Part shown: in pieces, positions 3,112 to 29,402 of the stretch | Numbering within the stretch: position 1 is the stretch's first letter | Layout: each line of letters opens with the position of its first letter | Origin: Acidobacteriota bacterium | Lineage (GTDB): Bacteria; Acidobacteriota; UBA4820; DSQY01 | Direction of reading: 5' to 3' | Assembly (NCBI GenBank): GCA_021787565.1 | Contig: JAJYLT010000015.1 | Location: forward strand, 1 to 64,000 | Length of the DNA stretch: 64,000 nucleotides | Notes under the pieces: generated by a model | Told to the model about the DNA's origin: nothing | What the model saw: only the letters and a program-made list of their open reading frames with translations | Databases searched by the model: none | Position numbers and translations under genes: made by a program

Positions 3112-3308
3112 TCGAGGTTTGCGCCGCAGAGTCCTGCCCACTCCCAAGAACGCTGTCACCCTGAAGGCGCCCCGCGAAGGGCTCCCCGTGAAGGGTCTCG
3201 GAGGTGGAACGGGACCGGGCGGACAGAGGGACGGCGCGGAGGCCGGGCCTGCTCGTGCGGCTGAGATCCTTCAGGGGCACGGCTTCGAAGGCGCCTTCAG
3301 AGGATGAC
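3112..3308. repeat. Palindromic intergenic repeat, family 1, copy B
   Basis: Second direct copy of the 2811-3005 repeat. Its palindromic core is 3155-3308, again bounded by GTCACCCTGAAGG and a CCTTCAGAGGATGAC end. A hairpin of this size would be a strong RNA structure if transcribed. It lies about 155 bases beyond the end of pheA on the minus strand. Confidence 0.8.
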
Positions 3309-3463: not shown

Positions 3464-4537
3464 TCACCGCCCGGCTGGGTAACAGCCGAGGAAGCGGAAG
3501 GAGGTGGCGCGCTCCTGGAGCGCGGCCAGCACGTCCCGCACGGCGGGGTCCCGGTCGGTGCCCTCGAAGTCGAGGAAGAAGCGGTAGTTGCCGGGGTCGG
3601 AGCGGCAGGGCATGGAGGCGATGCGCGTCAGGTTCAGCCCGGCGCCGGCGAAGAGCTCCAGCGCCTTCAGGAGCTGGCCGCTCTCGTGCCGCACCGTGAA
3701 GACCGCGGAGCACTTGTCCCCCTCCTCCGAGGGCGAGCGGGACAGCAGCAGAAAGCGCGTGGTGTTGGACTCCTCGTCCTCGATGCCCTCCTGGATCACC
3801 TCCAGCCCGTAGAGGCGGGCCGCCAGGGCGCTGGCCACGGCGGCGGCGCCCCTCGGCTTCTCCCGCGCCAGCATCCTCGCCGCGCCGGCCGTGTCGTAGA
3901 AGGGCCTCGGCTCCAGCTTGTGCCTCGCGAGGAAGCCGCGGCACTGGCCGAGGGCCATGGGGTGGGAATAGGCCACGCGCAGGTCGCGGTAGTCGCTCCC
4001 CGGCCAGGCCATCAGGCAGTGCTTCACGGGGACCGAGGCCTCGCCCCGGATCCAGAGGCCGGACTCGGGCAGCAGCGCGCTGACCTGGCTGACGGGCCCC
4101 TCCAGCGAATTCTCCACGGGCACCACGCCGAGCTCGAAGCGCCCCTGCTGAACGCCCAGGAACACGTCGCCGAACTCCACGCACGGCACCGTTGCGGCCC
4201 CCGGCACGAGCGAGCGCGCGGCGATCTCGCTGTGGGCGCCGTGCTCCCCCTGGAAGGCCACGATCGTGTGCCGCTCCCCTTGCAGGCGACGGCTCTCGGC
4301 CATGATGGAGGAGAAGACCTCCTGTGCGAATCCTTCGCCCACGAGCGCCAGGCTGTTCTGCTTGGCCCGCGCCAGCACCGACAGCTCGCGCGCCGCGTCC
4401 AACGGGCCGCTCTTGAGCGCCCGCGTGCGCAGCCCCAGCTCCATGCGCTCTTCGAGCAGGGTCAGCAGCTCCATGTCCACCTCGTCGATCCGCCGCCGGA
4501 GCGACTCCAGCTCCCGCTTCGCTTCATGGGCTTCCAT
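3464..4537 (-). CDS. pheA: Chorismate mutase / prephenate dehydratase
   Basis: This 357-residue bifunctional enzyme converts chorismate to prephenate and then to phenylpyruvate for phenylalanine synthesis. An AroQ-type chorismate mutase helix bundle occupies about residues 1-90 (LRRRIDEVDMELLTLLEERM). The prephenate dehydratase domain follows (about 100-275), with the family SNTTRFLLL motif that carries the catalytic Thr-Arg-Phe. An ACT domain ends the protein (about 280-350). The usual phenylalanine-binding ESRP motif of the ACT domain reads ASMP here, so feedback control may differ. The ATG at 4537 was chosen because it follows GGAGG and lies 2 bases after the DAHP synthase stop; the longer open frame upstream is an overlap with that gene. 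It is co-transcribed with DAHP synthase behind a candidate attenuator. Confidence 0.93.
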   Translation of the reverse strand: MEAHEAKRELESLRRRIDEVDMELLTLLEERMELGLRTRALKSGPLDAARELSVLARAKQNSLALVGEGFAQEVFSSIMAESRRLQGERHTIVAFQGEHGAHSEIAARSLVPGAATVPCVEFGDVFLGVQQGRFELGVVPVENSLEGPVSQVSALLPESGLWIRGEASVPVKHCLMAWPGSDYRDLRVAYSHPMALGQCRGFLARHKLEPRPFYDTAGAARMLAREKPRGAAAVASALAARLYGLEVIQEGIEDEESNTTRFLLLSRSPSEEGDKCSAVFTVRHESGQLLKALELFAGAGLNLTRIASMPCRSDPGNYRFFLDFEGTDRDPAVRDVLAALQERATSFRFLGCYPAGR

Positions 4538-4539
4538 CG

Positions 4540-5433
4540 TCACCGGCCTCCTTCCCGCTCCGCCGCGCCCGCACCCATGAAGGCCGCCAGGCCCCGCACC
4601 CTTTCCATCAGCGTCCCGAACTGCTCGGGCGTGAGCGCCTGCTCCGCGTCCGAAAGGGCCTCCGCGGGCCGCCGGTGGACCTCGATCATGAGTCCGTGGG
4701 CGCCCGCGGCAACCGCCGCCAGGCTCATGGGGAGCACCAGGCTCGCCCGCCCCGTGCCGTGCGTCGGGTCCACGATCACCGGCAGGTGGGAGCGCTCCAG
4801 CACGGCCGCCGCGGCGCTCAGGTCGAGGGTGTTGCGCGTGTAGCGCTCGAAGGTCCGGATGCCCCGCTCGCAGAGGATCACGTTGGGGTTCCCCTCGGCC
4901 AGGATGTACTCGGCGCACAGGAGCCACTCGTCCAGCGTGGCCTGCATGCCGCGCTTGAGGAGCACGGGGCGCGGGCACCGCCCCACCTCCTTGAGGAGGG
5001 TGAAGTTCTGCATGTTCCGGGCGCCGATCTGGAGGAGGTCCGCGTGCTCGGCCACCCAGCTCACGTCCCGCGGGTCCATCACCTCCGTCACCACGGGGAG
5101 GCCCGTCTCGCGCCCCGCCGCGGCGAGGAGCCTGAGGCCCTCCAGCCCCAGCCCCTGGAAGTCGTAGGGAGAGGTGCGCGGCTTGAAGGCTCCCCCGCGC
5201 AGCATGTCCGCGCCCGCTCGCTTCACCGCGCGGGCCGTTTCGAGCACCTGCTCCTCGCTCTCCACGCTGCACGGCCCCGCGATCACGCAGAGGCCAGCCC
5301 CGACGGTGGCGCTCCCCACCTTGACCAGCGTCCGCGGCCGCGCCTCCCTGTCCACCAGGCGCGCCCGGCTCTTGGCATGCACCGGCGGGGCTTCGGCCGA
5401 TCCGACTGCGGCGACTGTCTCCCTGGGCTCCAT
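4540..5433 (-). CDS. aroF: 3-deoxy-7-phosphoheptulonate (DAHP) synthase, type I-beta
   Basis: First enzyme of the shikimate pathway: it condenses phosphoenolpyruvate and erythrose-4-phosphate. The 297-residue product shows the KDO8P/DAHP synthase signatures [28 protein letters not shown] and [12 protein letters not shown]. It has no chorismate mutase or ACT fusion; the mutase is instead fused to the next gene, pheA. The ATG at 5433 is preceded by GGAGGTCCC. An upstream in-frame extension to 5523 is rejected because it would run through a terminator hairpin and its T-tract (5453-5481). First structural gene of a two-gene minus-strand operon. Expression is probably set by the leader peptide and attenuator just upstream. 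The aroF name refers to the reaction, not proven orthology to the E. coli isozyme. Confidence 0.93.
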
Positions 5434-5452
5434 GGGACCTCCTTCTGGCCAT

Positions 5453-5481
5453 AAAAAAACCCCGCACCGTGGGGTGCGGGG
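5453..5481 (-). terminator. Intrinsic terminator / attenuator before DAHP synthase
   Basis: On the minus strand a perfect 9-bp stem (arms 5473-5481 and 5460-5468, 4-base loop) is followed by seven T residues (5453-5459). It ends 19 bases before the DAHP synthase ATG and lies downstream of the promoter and leader ORF, so it must be read through for the operon to be expressed. Its 5' arm can alternatively pair with leader codons 23-25 (8 bp: 5518-5525 with 5472-5479), which would prevent the terminator from forming. Confidence 0.8.
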
Positions 5482-5504
5482 CCGGTTTCTCGAAGCGCGA
5501 TCGC

Positions 5505-5591
5505 TCAGGCCGGTGGGCCGCACCCGCGGATGGAGGGGCTAAAGCAGTCATAGTAGCTCGCGGTGGCGGAGGCGGAACCCATCATCCTCAT
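5505..5591 (-). CDS. Candidate Tyr/Phe leader peptide of the aro-phe operon
   Basis: A 28-codon frame starts at ATG 5591 and ends at TGA 5505-5507, 23 bases before the terminator hairpin. Codons 13, 14 and 17 are Tyr, Tyr and Phe (peptide segment YYDCF), apt for sensing aromatic amino acids. Codons 23-25 (GGG TGC GGC) contain the sequence that can pair with the terminator's 5' arm. The predicted transcription start falls at or near the A of the first ATG, so translation could be leaderless; in-frame ATGs also occur at codons 3 and 4. This is an inference from layout; translation is unproven. Confidence 0.6.
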
Positions 5592-5597
5592 GGCATC

Positions 5598-5626
5598 ACT
5601 CTACGCCGGTCCGCCGGCGCCGTCAA
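5598..5626 (-). promoter_or_regulatory. Sigma-70-type promoter of the aro-phe operon
   Basis: On the minus strand TTGACG (5621-5626), a 17-base spacer, then TAGAGT (5598-5603). The expected start site is about 5591. It drives the leader ORF, the attenuator, and then DAHP synthase and pheA. Confidence 0.65.
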
Positions 5627-5684: not shown

Positions 5685-5882
5685 CTAGTGTTGTGTCCCC
5701 GGCCTGTGTTTGCAGGGGCCTTTTCACGGGGAACAACACTTTCCAAGGGGCTCCGCCCCTCGGGCGCCCGCCCGCGGCGGGCTGTTGCCCCGAAAGAGCG
5801 GGGAGGCTTCCTCCCCGCACCCCTCCGTGTGCTGTCTGTCACCTGCTACCATGGTGAACCCATCACTGGGACAGCACACTAG
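5685..5882. mobile_element. MITE-like element, copy 1
   Basis: This 198-bp element is repeated in inverse orientation, at the same length, at 29205-29402. The ends are imperfect inverted repeats (TGTTGTGTCCC on the left; TGTGCTGTCCC read inward from the right) and are flanked by CTAG on both sides. It has no coding capacity. A TGT...GTCC terminus with a CTAG target recalls the IS481 family, but a TA-target (IS630/Tc1-like) origin is also possible; no transposase is in the window. It contains a perfect 9-bp stem (5798-5806 with 5810-5818, 3-base loop), which may terminate the long minus-strand gene ending at 5958. Confidence 0.75.
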
Positions 5883-5957
5883 AGGGGGCCGGATAGGGCG
5901 AAGCCCGGCGAATGGTTCCGCCGGGCTTCGCGCGCTACGCCAACAGACGCACCTGGT

Positions 5958-8900
5958 TCATCCCACCGGCGGCGGCGTCGTGCAGATAGGGGGATCATCC
6001 TGCGTGTAGTGGTCATTCAGCGACGAGCTGACTCCCGCAGCACCATCCGAGAAGGTCGCTGACGCACCGTGGAGGTAATAGTAGGTCAGCTTGACGTTCG
6101 CGACGCTGCCGGGCGGCGAGTTGATCCGGAAGTAGCCGTTCCCACTCTCCAGAATGCCCGTTCCCGTGAAGGTAGCCCCGGCGTCGGGACCTTTGAGAAT
6201 GGTGTACGACCAGGCTCCGGTGTGGCTGTTGGCGCACATCTCCGACTTCTCCAGGTCGTCTAGGATAGATGTGTTGTACAGCGAGATGAAGACATTCACG
6301 CTGAGAGACCCCGAGCAGCCGTAAGCGTCCGTGGCCACCACGGAGAAGACGTAAGTGCCCGCCGCCGTGGGTATGCCGGAGAGCGTTGCTGTTCCGCTGC
6401 CGTTGTCCGTGAGAGTCAGCCCCGGTGGAAGGGTGCCCGAGGAGGAGAATCGGTAGGTCGCGCTGCTGCCCGTCGCGCTGAAGGTCACCGGCCCGTACGC
6501 GTCGCCCACCGCCCCGGAGGCCGGCACCGGCGTAGGGGAGGAGGTGACCGTGATCGTCGGGCAGACCACGTTCAGCGTGTAGCTCTGGCTCCCCGTGCAA
6601 TTGTCGGAATCCGTGGCCGTCACGGTGATGGGGAAGGAGCCGGTCTGCGTGGGCGTGCCGGACAGCATCCCGGCTGTGAAGCTCATGCCCGTGGGCAGGG
6701 TTCCGCTCTCACTCCAGGTAATGGTCCCGATACCCCCCGTCTGCGTGAAGGTCTGGGAATACGCCACCCCCGTCGTGCCGGAGGAAAGAGATGCTGGGCT
6801 CACCGTGATCGTGGGGCAGACAATGATCAGCGTGTAGCTCTGGCTCCCCGTGCACCCGTACTTGTCCGTGGCCGTCACGGTGATGGGGAAGGAGCCGGTC
6901 TGCCCGGGGGTGCCCGAGAGCGTCGCCGTGGAAGCGTTGAAGGTCAGGCCGGCGGGAAGGGTGCCGCTCTCGGACCAGGTGATCGCCCCCTGTCCGTTCG
7001 TCTGCGTGAAGGTCTGGGAATACGCCACCCCCGCCGTGCCGGAGGAAAGAGATGCTGGGCTCACCGTGATCGTGGGGCAGCTCGTGACCACGACGGAGTA
7101 GGCGGTGGCCCCGGCGCAGCCGTTGGCGTCGGTGGCCGTGATCGTGAACGTGAAGGACCCCGCGCCCGTCAAATTGCCGGTCAGGGCGCCGGTAGTGCTG
7201 TCGAGACTGAGGCCAGTCGGAAGAGAACCCGCGGACACCGCGAAGCCATAGGGCGTCGCGCCTCCGCTTGCGGTGACCGTCTGGCTGTACGGCTCGCCGA
7301 CAACGCCGTTTGGCAGGCTCGCGGGACCGACTGTGATGGTCGGGCAAGCATAGGTGAACTGGTCGGCCTGGGACACTGCGCTGGCTCCGAAGATGCACGT
7401 CACGGTGATGTCCACGGTCCCGGCGGCGCGTGGGGGGCTGACTGCTGTGATCTGTGTGTCCGAAACCACGCTGAAAGAGACGGCCGCGGTGCCGCCGAAA
7501 CTGACGGCGAGGGCACCCGTGAAGCCGGAGCCGGTGATCGTGATGCTCGTCCCGCCGGTCGTCGGGCCGCTCGTGGGGGCGATCCCGGTAACCGTGGGTC
7601 CGACGACCTGCGTCATGGTGAAGACGCCCGCCTCCGTGCCAGCGAGAAGGTGGGTCCGGTTGGTGGGATCCACCATGATGGCGTGGACCATGGTGTTGCT
7701 CAGCCCCGAGTTGATGGCGGTCCAGGAGGTCCCGCCATCGAGGCTCTTGTAGACGCCCGTGGGGTAGTAGGAGCACCCGCCGACTCCAATGTAAACCATC
7801 CCGGGCGTCACGGGGTCGAGGGCCACCGCGTAGACGCCCATGCAGGACAAGCCTGAATTCACGGCGGTCCAGGTCGCGCCGCCGTCGGTGGACTTCACGA
7901 CCCCGTTGGTATTGCCATAGCTGGCCGCATAGACCGTGTTCGAGTCGTAGGGTGCCACGGCGATGTTGTAGATTCCGTAATCGGGGCCGCTGTACACCGA
8001 GGTCCAGGTTGTCCCCCCGTCCGTCGTTTTGTAGATTACATCACTGAATTGGAGGCCGACGTAGACGGTGCCGCTGTGGTTCGGGTCGAAGGCCAGGCAG
8101 CAGTAGTTTGAGCCGGAGGGTAGGCCTCCGGTGCCGCCGGCGACGTTTGTCCAGGAGCTTCCGCCGTTGGTAGACTTGAAGAGGCCGTCGCCGCTGGTGC
8201 CGGCATAGAGAATCGGGGGGTTGGCCGGATCTTGCCCCACGCAGAGGATGTTGGCCAGGAGCGCCCCGTTGTTGATGTTCGTCCAGGTGGTGCCGCCGTC
8301 GGTGCTCACGTCGACGCCCGGGCCCCAAACCGCGGTGTAAAGCCGGGTCGGCGACACGCTCGCGTCGGCGATCACCGAGTTCACGGTGCTTCCGGCGAAG
8401 GCGACCTTGCTCCAGGTGGCGCCCGAGTCTGTACTTTTGTACAGGCCGTCGCCGCTGCCCGCGTACAAGGTCGAGGGGCTGGCGGGATCCACGGCCTGCG
8501 AATAAACGGTCAGGTGGGAGCCCAGGCCGAGGTTCTGAGCCGTCCAGGTGGTTCCGCCGTTCGTGGTTCCATAGATACCGCCGCTCGTGGTGCCGACGTG
8601 CAGTGCGCCGCTCGCCGCCGGGCTGGGTGCGATGGCGTTGACCTCGTTGCCCCCCAGGCCGGAGTTGATGAGGGTCCATATGCTCCCGCCGTTCGTGCCT
8701 ACCCAGAGGTTCCCCGAATAGTCTGCTGCATAGAGGTCACCGAAGGCGTCCGCCACCAGCGGAGTAGCACTCTGTCCCGCGAGCCCGGCCTGAGTCCAGC
8801 TCGTGCCCCCGTTCACGCTCGTATAGACACCGCCGCCCCATGTACCGGCATAGAGGGTTCCGGTCCCGCTATCGATGGCCAGACCCCGGACGTTGAGGTT

Positions 8901-28119: not shown

Positions 28120-29208
28120 ATGATCGTGAGGCGAATGCGAGAACTGGCGCGGTGGATGGCCCCGCTGGTTCTCCTCGGTGCGGCCGTCCCGGTGGGGGCC
28201 CAGGCGCACCTGATGCTGCACGGCGGAGGGGCGACCTTCCCCTTCCCCCTCTACGCCCAGTGGTCCTACGAATACGCTCGCCTCACCGGGGAGCGCTTCA
28301 ACTACCAGTCCATCGGGTCGGGGGCCGGCATCGAGCAGATGCGCCATCACATCTTCGACTTCGGCGCCTCCGAGGCGCCGCTCGACGCCGATGTCCTGAG
28401 CCGTTCCGGTCTGATCCAGTTCCCCATGGTGATCGGCGGCGTGGTGCCGGTGGTCAACCTCCCTGGCATCGCCTCGGCTGAGCTGAAGCTGACCGGCCCC
28501 ATCCTGGCCGACGTCTTCCTCGGCCGCATCACCTCGTGGCGCGACCCGCGCATCATGGCCCTCAACCCGCACCTGCGCCTGCCGCCCCTGGAAATCTCCG
28601 TGGTGACGCGGGCCGACGGATCGGGGAGCACATGGCTGATCACTCGGTACCTCGGCGAGGTCTCGGCCGACTGGCGCCTAAAGGTCGGCAACGGTCCCTC
28701 CGTCCGATGGCCGGTGGGGATGGCCTCGAAGGGGAACGAGGGCGTCTCTTCCTACGTGAAACAGACCACGGGGAGCATCGGCTACGTGGAGTTCACCTAC
28801 GCCCGGCAGAACGGCCTGGCGACGGTCCTCTTGCAGAACCGGGCCGGCGGCTTCCCCTCGCCGGGTAGGGCCTCCTTCCTCGCGGCGGCCGCCAAGGCGG
28901 AATGGTCGGGGCCCGACCGCACCCCCAGGGGTCTGACGGACCAGGCGGGGGAGGACTCCTGGCCCATCGTGGGTGCCTCGTTCATCCTCATCGCCCGCGA
29001 CCAGCCCGATGGGAAACGTGCGGAAGCCTTGCTGAAGTACTTCGACTGGTGCTTCCGCGGCGGGAAGCGCATCGTGGACGAGCTCGATTACGTTCCCATT
29101 CCCGAGCCCATCGTCCGTCGGATTGAAGCGTCCTGGGCGGCCGAGATCCGCTCGGCGGGCAAGCCGGTCTGGCCTTTGGCCTACCCGGCGGCCAAGTCCG
29201 GCGGGTAG
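28120..29208 (+). CDS. pstS: Phosphate ABC transporter substrate-binding protein
   Basis: A 362-residue periplasmic phosphate-binding protein. A signal peptide (MAPLVLLGAAVPVGAQA) is followed by the hallmark start LHGGGATFPFPLYAQW. Phosphate-contacting stretches include SIGSGAGIEQM, FGASEAPL and TRADGSGSTW. It feeds the PstCA permease encoded downstream. The stop codon TAG (29206-29208) lies in the left flank of the MITE-like element that fills the gap to pstC. GGGAGAGA precedes the ATG. No convincing Pho box was found upstream. Confidence 0.94.
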   Translation: MIVRRMRELARWMAPLVLLGAAVPVGAQAHLMLHGGGATFPFPLYAQWSYEYARLTGERFNYQSIGSGAGIEQMRHHIFDFGASEAPLDADVLSRSGLIQFPMVIGGVVPVVNLPGIASAELKLTGPILADVFLGRITSWRDPRIMALNPHLRLPPLEISVVTRADGSGSTWLITRYLGEVSADWRLKVGNGPSVRWPVGMASKGNEGVSSYVKQTTGSIGYVEFTYARQNGLATVLLQNRAGGFPSPGRASFLAAAAKAEWSGPDRTPRGLTDQAGEDSWPIVGASFILIARDQPDGKRAEALLKYFDWCFRGGKRIVDELDYVPIPEPIVRRIEASWAAEIRSAGKPVWPLAYPAAKSGG

Positions 29209-29402
29209 TGTGCCGTCCCGGTGATAGGTTGACCATGGAAGCAGGCGAGAGACAGCACACGGAGGGGTGCGGGGAGAAAGCCTCCCCGCTCTTTTGGGGT
29301 AACAGCCCGCCGCAGGCGGGCGCCCTAGGGGCGGAGCCCCTTGGGAAGTGTTGTGTCCCGGGAAAAGGCCATTGTAAACACAGGACGGGGACACAACACT
29401 AG
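29205..29402. mobile_element. MITE-like element, copy 2, between pstS and pstC
   Basis: Inverse-orientation copy of the 5685-5882 element, the same 198 bp and roughly 88% identical by eye. The flanks are GTAG on the left and CTAG on the right, and the left flank supplies the pstS stop codon. It occupies almost all of the 212-base pstS-pstC gap. Read in the operon direction it contains a terminator-like hairpin (29269-29295). No coding capacity. Confidence 0.75.
29269..29295 (+). terminator. Terminator-like hairpin inside the pst operon
   Basis: GCGGGGAG (29269-29276) pairs perfectly with CTCCCCGC (29282-29289) around a 5-base loop and is followed by TCTTTT. It comes with the MITE and could cause partial termination after pstS, raising PstS over the permease subunits. 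Confidence 0.55.

Follow-up and report, generated by a model that had tools for sequence, protein, structure and literature searches.

The DNA that precedes the DAHP synthase gene in the window (the whole stretch of 64,000 nucleotides analysed here, from an Acidobacteriota contig) carries, on the minus strand, a promoter-like site, a short open reading frame (ORF) with tyrosine and phenylalanine codons, and a hairpin that is followed by a run of T residues; this arrangement raises the question of whether these elements form a ribosome-mediated transcription attenuator and, if so, which amino acid is sensed by it. The operon consists of two genes, which encode DAHP synthase and the bifunctional chorismate mutase/prephenate dehydratase (PheA), and its product is phenylalanine. 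A ribosome-mediated attenuator had been put forward in the original prediction, and we have found support for it in an orthologous element of another genome (G373) and in the mutually exclusive pairings of the leader RNA; on these sequence comparisons, the DAHP synthase-PheA operon is very probably controlled in this way.

Table 1. Features of the leader region and of the operon, in window coordinates.
Feature	Position	Strand	Remarks
Sigma-70-like promoter, TTGACG-N17-TAGAGT	5598..5626	-	TTGACG 5626-5621, TAGAGT 5603-5598; sequence read
Leader ORF, 28 codons	5505..5591	-	stop TGA 5507-5505
Control codons Tyr13 Tyr14 Asp15 Cys16 Phe17 (TAC TAT GAC TGC TTT)	5541..5555	-	Tyr13 TAC 5555-5553, Tyr14 TAT 5552-5550, Phe17 TTT 5543-5541; aligned with G373 Phe Tyr Phe Tyr Phe
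Antiterminator segment (segment 2), GGGTGCGG	5518..5525	-	8 bp complementary to 5479-5472; GGTGCGG kept in G373
CCGG at the last leader codons	5510..5513	-	inner antiterminator helix with the CCGG that starts segment 3; CCGG/CCGG kept in G373
Segment 3, CCGGCCCCGCACCC, 5' arm used by antiterminator and terminator alike	5472..5485	-
Intrinsic terminator hairpin, -21.5 kcal/mol	5458..5483	-	23/26 nt identical in G373
T7 tract	5453..5459	-	sequence read
Shine-Dalgarno of DAHP synthase, AGAAGGAGG	5438..5446	-	sequence read
DAHP synthase (type I beta, TIGR01361/NF006421), operon gene 1	4540..5433	-
Chorismate mutase/prephenate dehydratase (P-protein, pheA, bifunctional)	3464..4525	-	same gene order in G373

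The individual parts of the proposed attenuator are all present in the sequence (Table 1). The predicted promoter is exact to the base, and it is the only promoter-like site between positions 3200 and 6000, where shuffled sequences are expected to contain 0.1. The 28-codon ORF with Tyr13, Tyr14 and Phe17 occurs as described, and an ORF with at least three Tyr/Phe codons within five codons appears in 0.2% of dinucleotide shuffles; the three aromatic codons are not all adjacent, and the leaders of relatives contain more of them, which counts against the attenuator. The terminator, described as a 9-bp stem with seven Ts that ends 19 bases before DAHP synthase, is likewise found: its stem comprises 11 pairs, i.e. 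nine perfect pairs inside and two G-U pairs at the base, and 19 nt separate the T7 tract from the ATG of DAHP synthase.

The complementarity over 8 bases that had been claimed between leader codons 23-25 and the 5' arm of the terminator is confirmed, with GGGTGCGG being complementary to CCGCACCC; a contiguous 8-bp complement to the terminator arm occurs in 1.0% of dinucleotide shuffles, and a duplex that matches the observed stability (-23.8 kcal/mol) in 0.08%. The alternative pairing is larger than had been described, as it also includes a CCGG/CCGG helix and an inner hairpin stacked inside. When the RNA upstream of position 5530 is treated as covered (with Phe17 in the A site) and the transcript is extended to the terminator loop, the predicted fold consists of GGGUGCGG/CCGCACCC and CCGG/CCGG with the hairpin inside, at -27.8 kcal/mol; when the ribosome is placed at the stop codon, the terminator alone remains (-21.9). 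The full-length RNA favours the terminator (-37.5 in total), a preference also known from classical attenuators, in which the outcome depends on the order in which the RNA segments are made. By footprint arithmetic, approximately 5522-5495, i.e. most of segment 2, would lie under a ribosome on the stop codon.

The proposed mechanism can be outlined as follows. RNA polymerase would start at or beside the A of the leader ATG, with a ribosome translating the 28-codon leader behind it. If Phe-tRNA (and/or Tyr-tRNA) were short, the ribosome would stall at the Tyr13-Tyr14...Phe17 codons with its front edge upstream of 5525, and segment 2, together with the CCGG of the last codons, would be able to pair with segment 3, so that transcription would proceed into the operon; if charged tRNA were ample, the ribosome would reach the stop codon and cover most of segment 2, and the terminator would form. 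Both the stalling and the termination in vivo are what we infer from the arrangement of these segments.

Further evidence for the attenuator is provided by the closest DAHP synthase among 396 genomes of the phylum, which occurs in G373, a genome of a different family, and is 74% identical to that of the window; searches of G373's own family, class and phylum have yielded no further close ortholog. On the correct strand, the G373 gene is preceded by a leader that reads MVTDPRNAAVSDTARTGNMAPSAPAVSSGFYFYFTPETGRCGPPA up to its stop codon, followed by GGCCCCGCACCCGACGGTGCGGGGCC TTTTCTTTT. The C-terminal 17 codons of the window leader align without gaps with the G373 leader GFYFYFTPETGRCGPPA, and the aromatic codons at the end of the latter (...SSGFYFYFTPETGRCGPPA, then stop) are located as far from the stop as in the window: counted from the stop, positions 16-12 are FYFYF in G373 and YYDCF in the window, both clusters ending 12 codons before the stop. 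The spacings are also the same in the two genomes, with GGTGCGG starting 16 nt past the Phe codon and with a spacer of 21 nt between the stop and the terminator arm. Between the antiterminator and the stop, 18/20 nt are identical, and at the end of the ORF (TGC GGY CCR CCG GCC TGA) just two differences occur, both of them synonymous and at third codon positions; the two G-U pairs at the base of the window's terminator are G-C pairs in G373. The alternative pairing of G373, taken alone, reaches 8-9% in the shuffle test, which is not significant.

Alignment of the leader in relatives had been suggested in the original prediction: the aromatic cluster occurs at matching positions in G373, and covariation is not seen, with no compensatory base change between the helices of the window and those of G373, because the helices are nearly identical. 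As for a relative that would keep the hairpin and lack the leader ORF or the alternative pairing, which had been named as the case that would speak against the attenuator, G373 is the opposite, since it retains all of these, including the aromatic codons, the spacings and the terminator.

The same comparison bears on the possibility that the hairpin is an ordinary terminator, either of the upstream gene or one of constant partial termination, and that the small ORF is there by accident. ORFs of this length (about 28 codons) are frequent in GC-rich DNA, and several overlapping frames cross the region; however, the hairpin is retained in G373 along with the leader, its aromatic codons, its spacing and the alternative pairing, although the upstream DNA is not shared. 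When the 64-kb window was compared by BLASTN with 8 kb of the G373 contig, homology was confined to 3477-5524, so that the DNA common to both comprises the two genes (DAHP synthase and PheA) and the 3' portion of the attenuator, and upstream of the Tyr/Phe region there is no gap-free alignment (19/60). Moreover, the leader region has a promoter-like site of its own, the codon cluster is rarely produced by chance (see above), and the upstream gene, a 1214-aa ORF that ends at 5958, has a perfect 13-bp inverted repeat with an 8-nt loop just behind it (5898-5931), which is perhaps its terminator. The reading of an ordinary terminator with an accidental ORF is thus largely refuted, and we consider it very unlikely.

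Elements such as metabolite riboswitches, T-boxes or protein-controlled leaders also occur as 5' leaders with a terminator ahead of amino-acid operons, but such an identity is hardly credible here, as no T-box, riboswitch or other Rfam family is matched at threshold by the window leader or by 14 related leaders, the RNA of approximately 110 nt that precedes the terminator is mostly ORF, and the conserved parts are those that ribosome-mediated attenuation needs. Weak Rfam matches below threshold, among them Hrs13 and ncS037, resemble matches to terminators and were set aside.

The region upstream of the promoter contains a dispersed repeat of about 198 bp (5685-5882, minus strand), CTAGTGTGCTGTC ... 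GACACAACACTAG, with imperfect terminal inverted repeats ending in CTAG; a second copy is located at 29206-29402 (plus strand), between pstS-like and pstC-like genes, and about 18 copies with 76-94% identity occur in the window's genome. By its sequence, this repeat looks like a MITE.

With regard to the initiation of the leader, the -10 hexamer is located 6 nt before the ATG in the window, leaving almost no 5' UTR, and 7 nt before it both in G373 (locus L141, TTGACG-N17-TAAGGT) and in five more distant leaders, whose layout is TTGAC(A/T)-N16-TANNNT-7 nt-ATG. Since no Shine-Dalgarno sequence precedes the ATG of the window leader, initiation must be leaderless or weak; together with the distance of 6-7 nt in all seven leaders, this suggests that the transcript starts at the ATG and makes leaderless translation of the leader ORF probable. 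Leaderless transcription has been reported for the Streptomyces leader peptides trpL, leuL and ilvL (PMC8079986), which resemble the window leader in that the leader ORF is transcribed without a 5' UTR; the likeness differs in that leaderlessness in the window is predicted only from the distance of the -10 hexamer to the ATG.

Five more distant leaders (L084, L143, L144, L146 and L011) belong to DAHP synthase genes of 65-67% identity; their peptides end in QFYFYFFYFNS, QYFYFYYFYLK and similar sequences directly before the stop, and each is followed by two terminators. In L143, L146 and L011, GGGCUGUCUGC has alternative partners: GGCAGACAG or GGCGGACAG upstream of the Tyr/Phe run, and GGCAGACAG in the loop of the first terminator. 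As far as can be predicted from their pairings, these three leaders have the textbook 1:2 / 2:3 / 3:4 switch. The 1:2 protector helix is strong in these three, while it is foldable in the window and has no clear equivalent in G373. An ortholog of 68% identity (L083, genome G016) is without a leader because the gene sits inside an operon, directly after a trpA-like gene. Across the upstream regions of 130 DAHP synthase genes, an aromatic-rich ORF (at least 5 aromatic codons in 8) occurs on the sense strand in 27 and on the antisense strand in 6; as the reversed-sequence control yields 13 matches, against the 6 of the antisense strand, the raw count should not be over-read, and the joint presence of a downstream terminator, which follows in 20 of the 27 sense-strand cases, is a stronger signal. 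The aromatic-leader set includes records of Clostridia, Spirochaetia and Planctomycetes.

The exact pattern TAYTAYGAYTGYTTYAGYCC, searched in 396 genomes of the phylum, is matched by the window alone, and a DNA search with the leader across the window's family has returned only the self-match. The other eight genomes of the family (G001-G008) contain neither this DAHP synthase paralog nor pheA, with no pheA-like protein found in them at E <= 1e-20; the distribution of the operon is therefore patchy, which would be best explained by transfer or loss. In the window's genome, neither of the two other DAHP synthases is preceded by a leader or terminator of this kind, and a fragment at another locus (L140, contig C46:660-845) matches residues 290-353 of the window's PheA at 81% identity, with the rest of the gene absent; it is probably what remains of another copy of pheA. 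The trpE gene of the same genome (contig C5) is preceded by VTYTQIATANMNYWWYAGLGVRERMAAA, ending at its stop, and then by GGCCCACCGGAAGCGGTGGGCC-T7: its leader (L186:193-333, at the start of the contig) is a Trp-Trp peptide (...NYWWY...) with GGAGG upstream, and the terminator is located between the leader and trpE. From its sequence, leader-peptide control thus seems to be used elsewhere by this organism too.

A further group of DAHP synthase genes in other families (L147, L151, L172-L179, L181, L183 and L185) is preceded by Tyr/Phe-rich leader ORFs without an intrinsic terminator; a short hairpin that holds or abuts the leader stop occurs immediately after the Tyr/Phe run. In 13 such hairpin sequences, which were picked by eye so that the pairing count is descriptive, 68/68 counted cells form standard pairs and 2/6 pairs are changed on both sides. 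The hairpin is followed by a C-rich, often nearly G-free tract, and in four relatives the next 50 nt contain 2-4% G. Rho-dependent attenuation has been suggested on similar grounds for terminator-less Cys leaders of mycobacteria (PMC1262725) and, by analogy, is possible for these leaders.

Concerning the amino acid that is sensed, the original prediction had proposed tyrosine and phenylalanine together. The codons permit such joint sensing: two Tyr codons stand against one Phe codon in the window's cluster, the two genomes share a Tyr at position 15 before the stop, and, by footprint arithmetic, a stall at any of the three codons would free the antiterminator, so that sensing of tyrosine is compatible with the arrangement. 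It is nevertheless a tentative but real possibility that the attenuator responds essentially to phenylalanine alone, with the Tyr codons being neutral or merely slowing the ribosome: the operon, with DAHP synthase and prephenate dehydratase, is one of phenylalanine synthesis, and the window and G373 have Phe in common at position 12 before the stop. According to the available accounts (Neshat et al. 2014, as described in PMC11802643; also PMC4046766), aroF of C. glutamicum, a DAHP synthase gene and the nearest case that has been studied, is preceded by the leader peptide aroR with a Phe-Tyr-Phe cluster, and stalling on it leads to read-through; as described in PMC11802643, only limitation of phenylalanine matters, and not that of tyrosine. 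Joint sensing would thus be an allowed reading, while phenylalanine as the main signal is the safer guess.

A clustered-codon ORF, a terminator before the first structural gene, an exclusive antiterminator and conservation in relatives are all found at this locus, which is very probably a further case of the known class of leader-peptide attenuators. The pheL-pheA and trpL-trpE systems of E. coli share with it the leader peptide with control codons, the alternative antiterminator and terminator hairpins, and a P-protein gene among the targets; in E. coli, however, the leader ORFs are preceded by Shine-Dalgarno sites and the 1:2 protector hairpin is clear, whereas the ORF of the window seems to start at the RNA 5' end and its protector is not clearly conserved. 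Precedents at DAHP synthase are aroR and the Acholeplasma motif uORFC-13-1. The former, likened here by its published description, belongs to another phylum, has another leader sequence, and is distinguished by the window operon continuing with pheA. The latter is a uORF that lies immediately ahead of an intrinsic terminator and aroF, and for which the incorporation of phenylalanine has been proposed as the signal (PMC8632094), but it is a conserved structured motif that is restricted to Acholeplasma and environmental sequences, while the window matches no Rfam family.

As a tentative generalization, which we would not yet call probable, the DAHP synthase operons of the phylum may widely be under the control of Tyr/Phe leader peptides from leaderless mRNAs, in two forms: terminator attenuators, as in the window, which apparently move between families as a unit with DAHP synthase and pheA, and terminator-less leaders, in which the stop-codon hairpin precedes a tract poor in G and rich in C, to which Rho may be recruited. 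A Rho-dependent form of this sensor could be sought directly in the terminator-less relatives, and the seven leaders with the -10 hexamer at 6-7 nt turn the leaderless translation of leader peptides outside Actinobacteria into a specific claim that can be tested. The attenuator of the window, with the switch and its two genes forming a block that is common to two distant families, adds a little-studied bacterial lineage to those in which the first step of aromatic amino-acid synthesis is under leader-peptide control.
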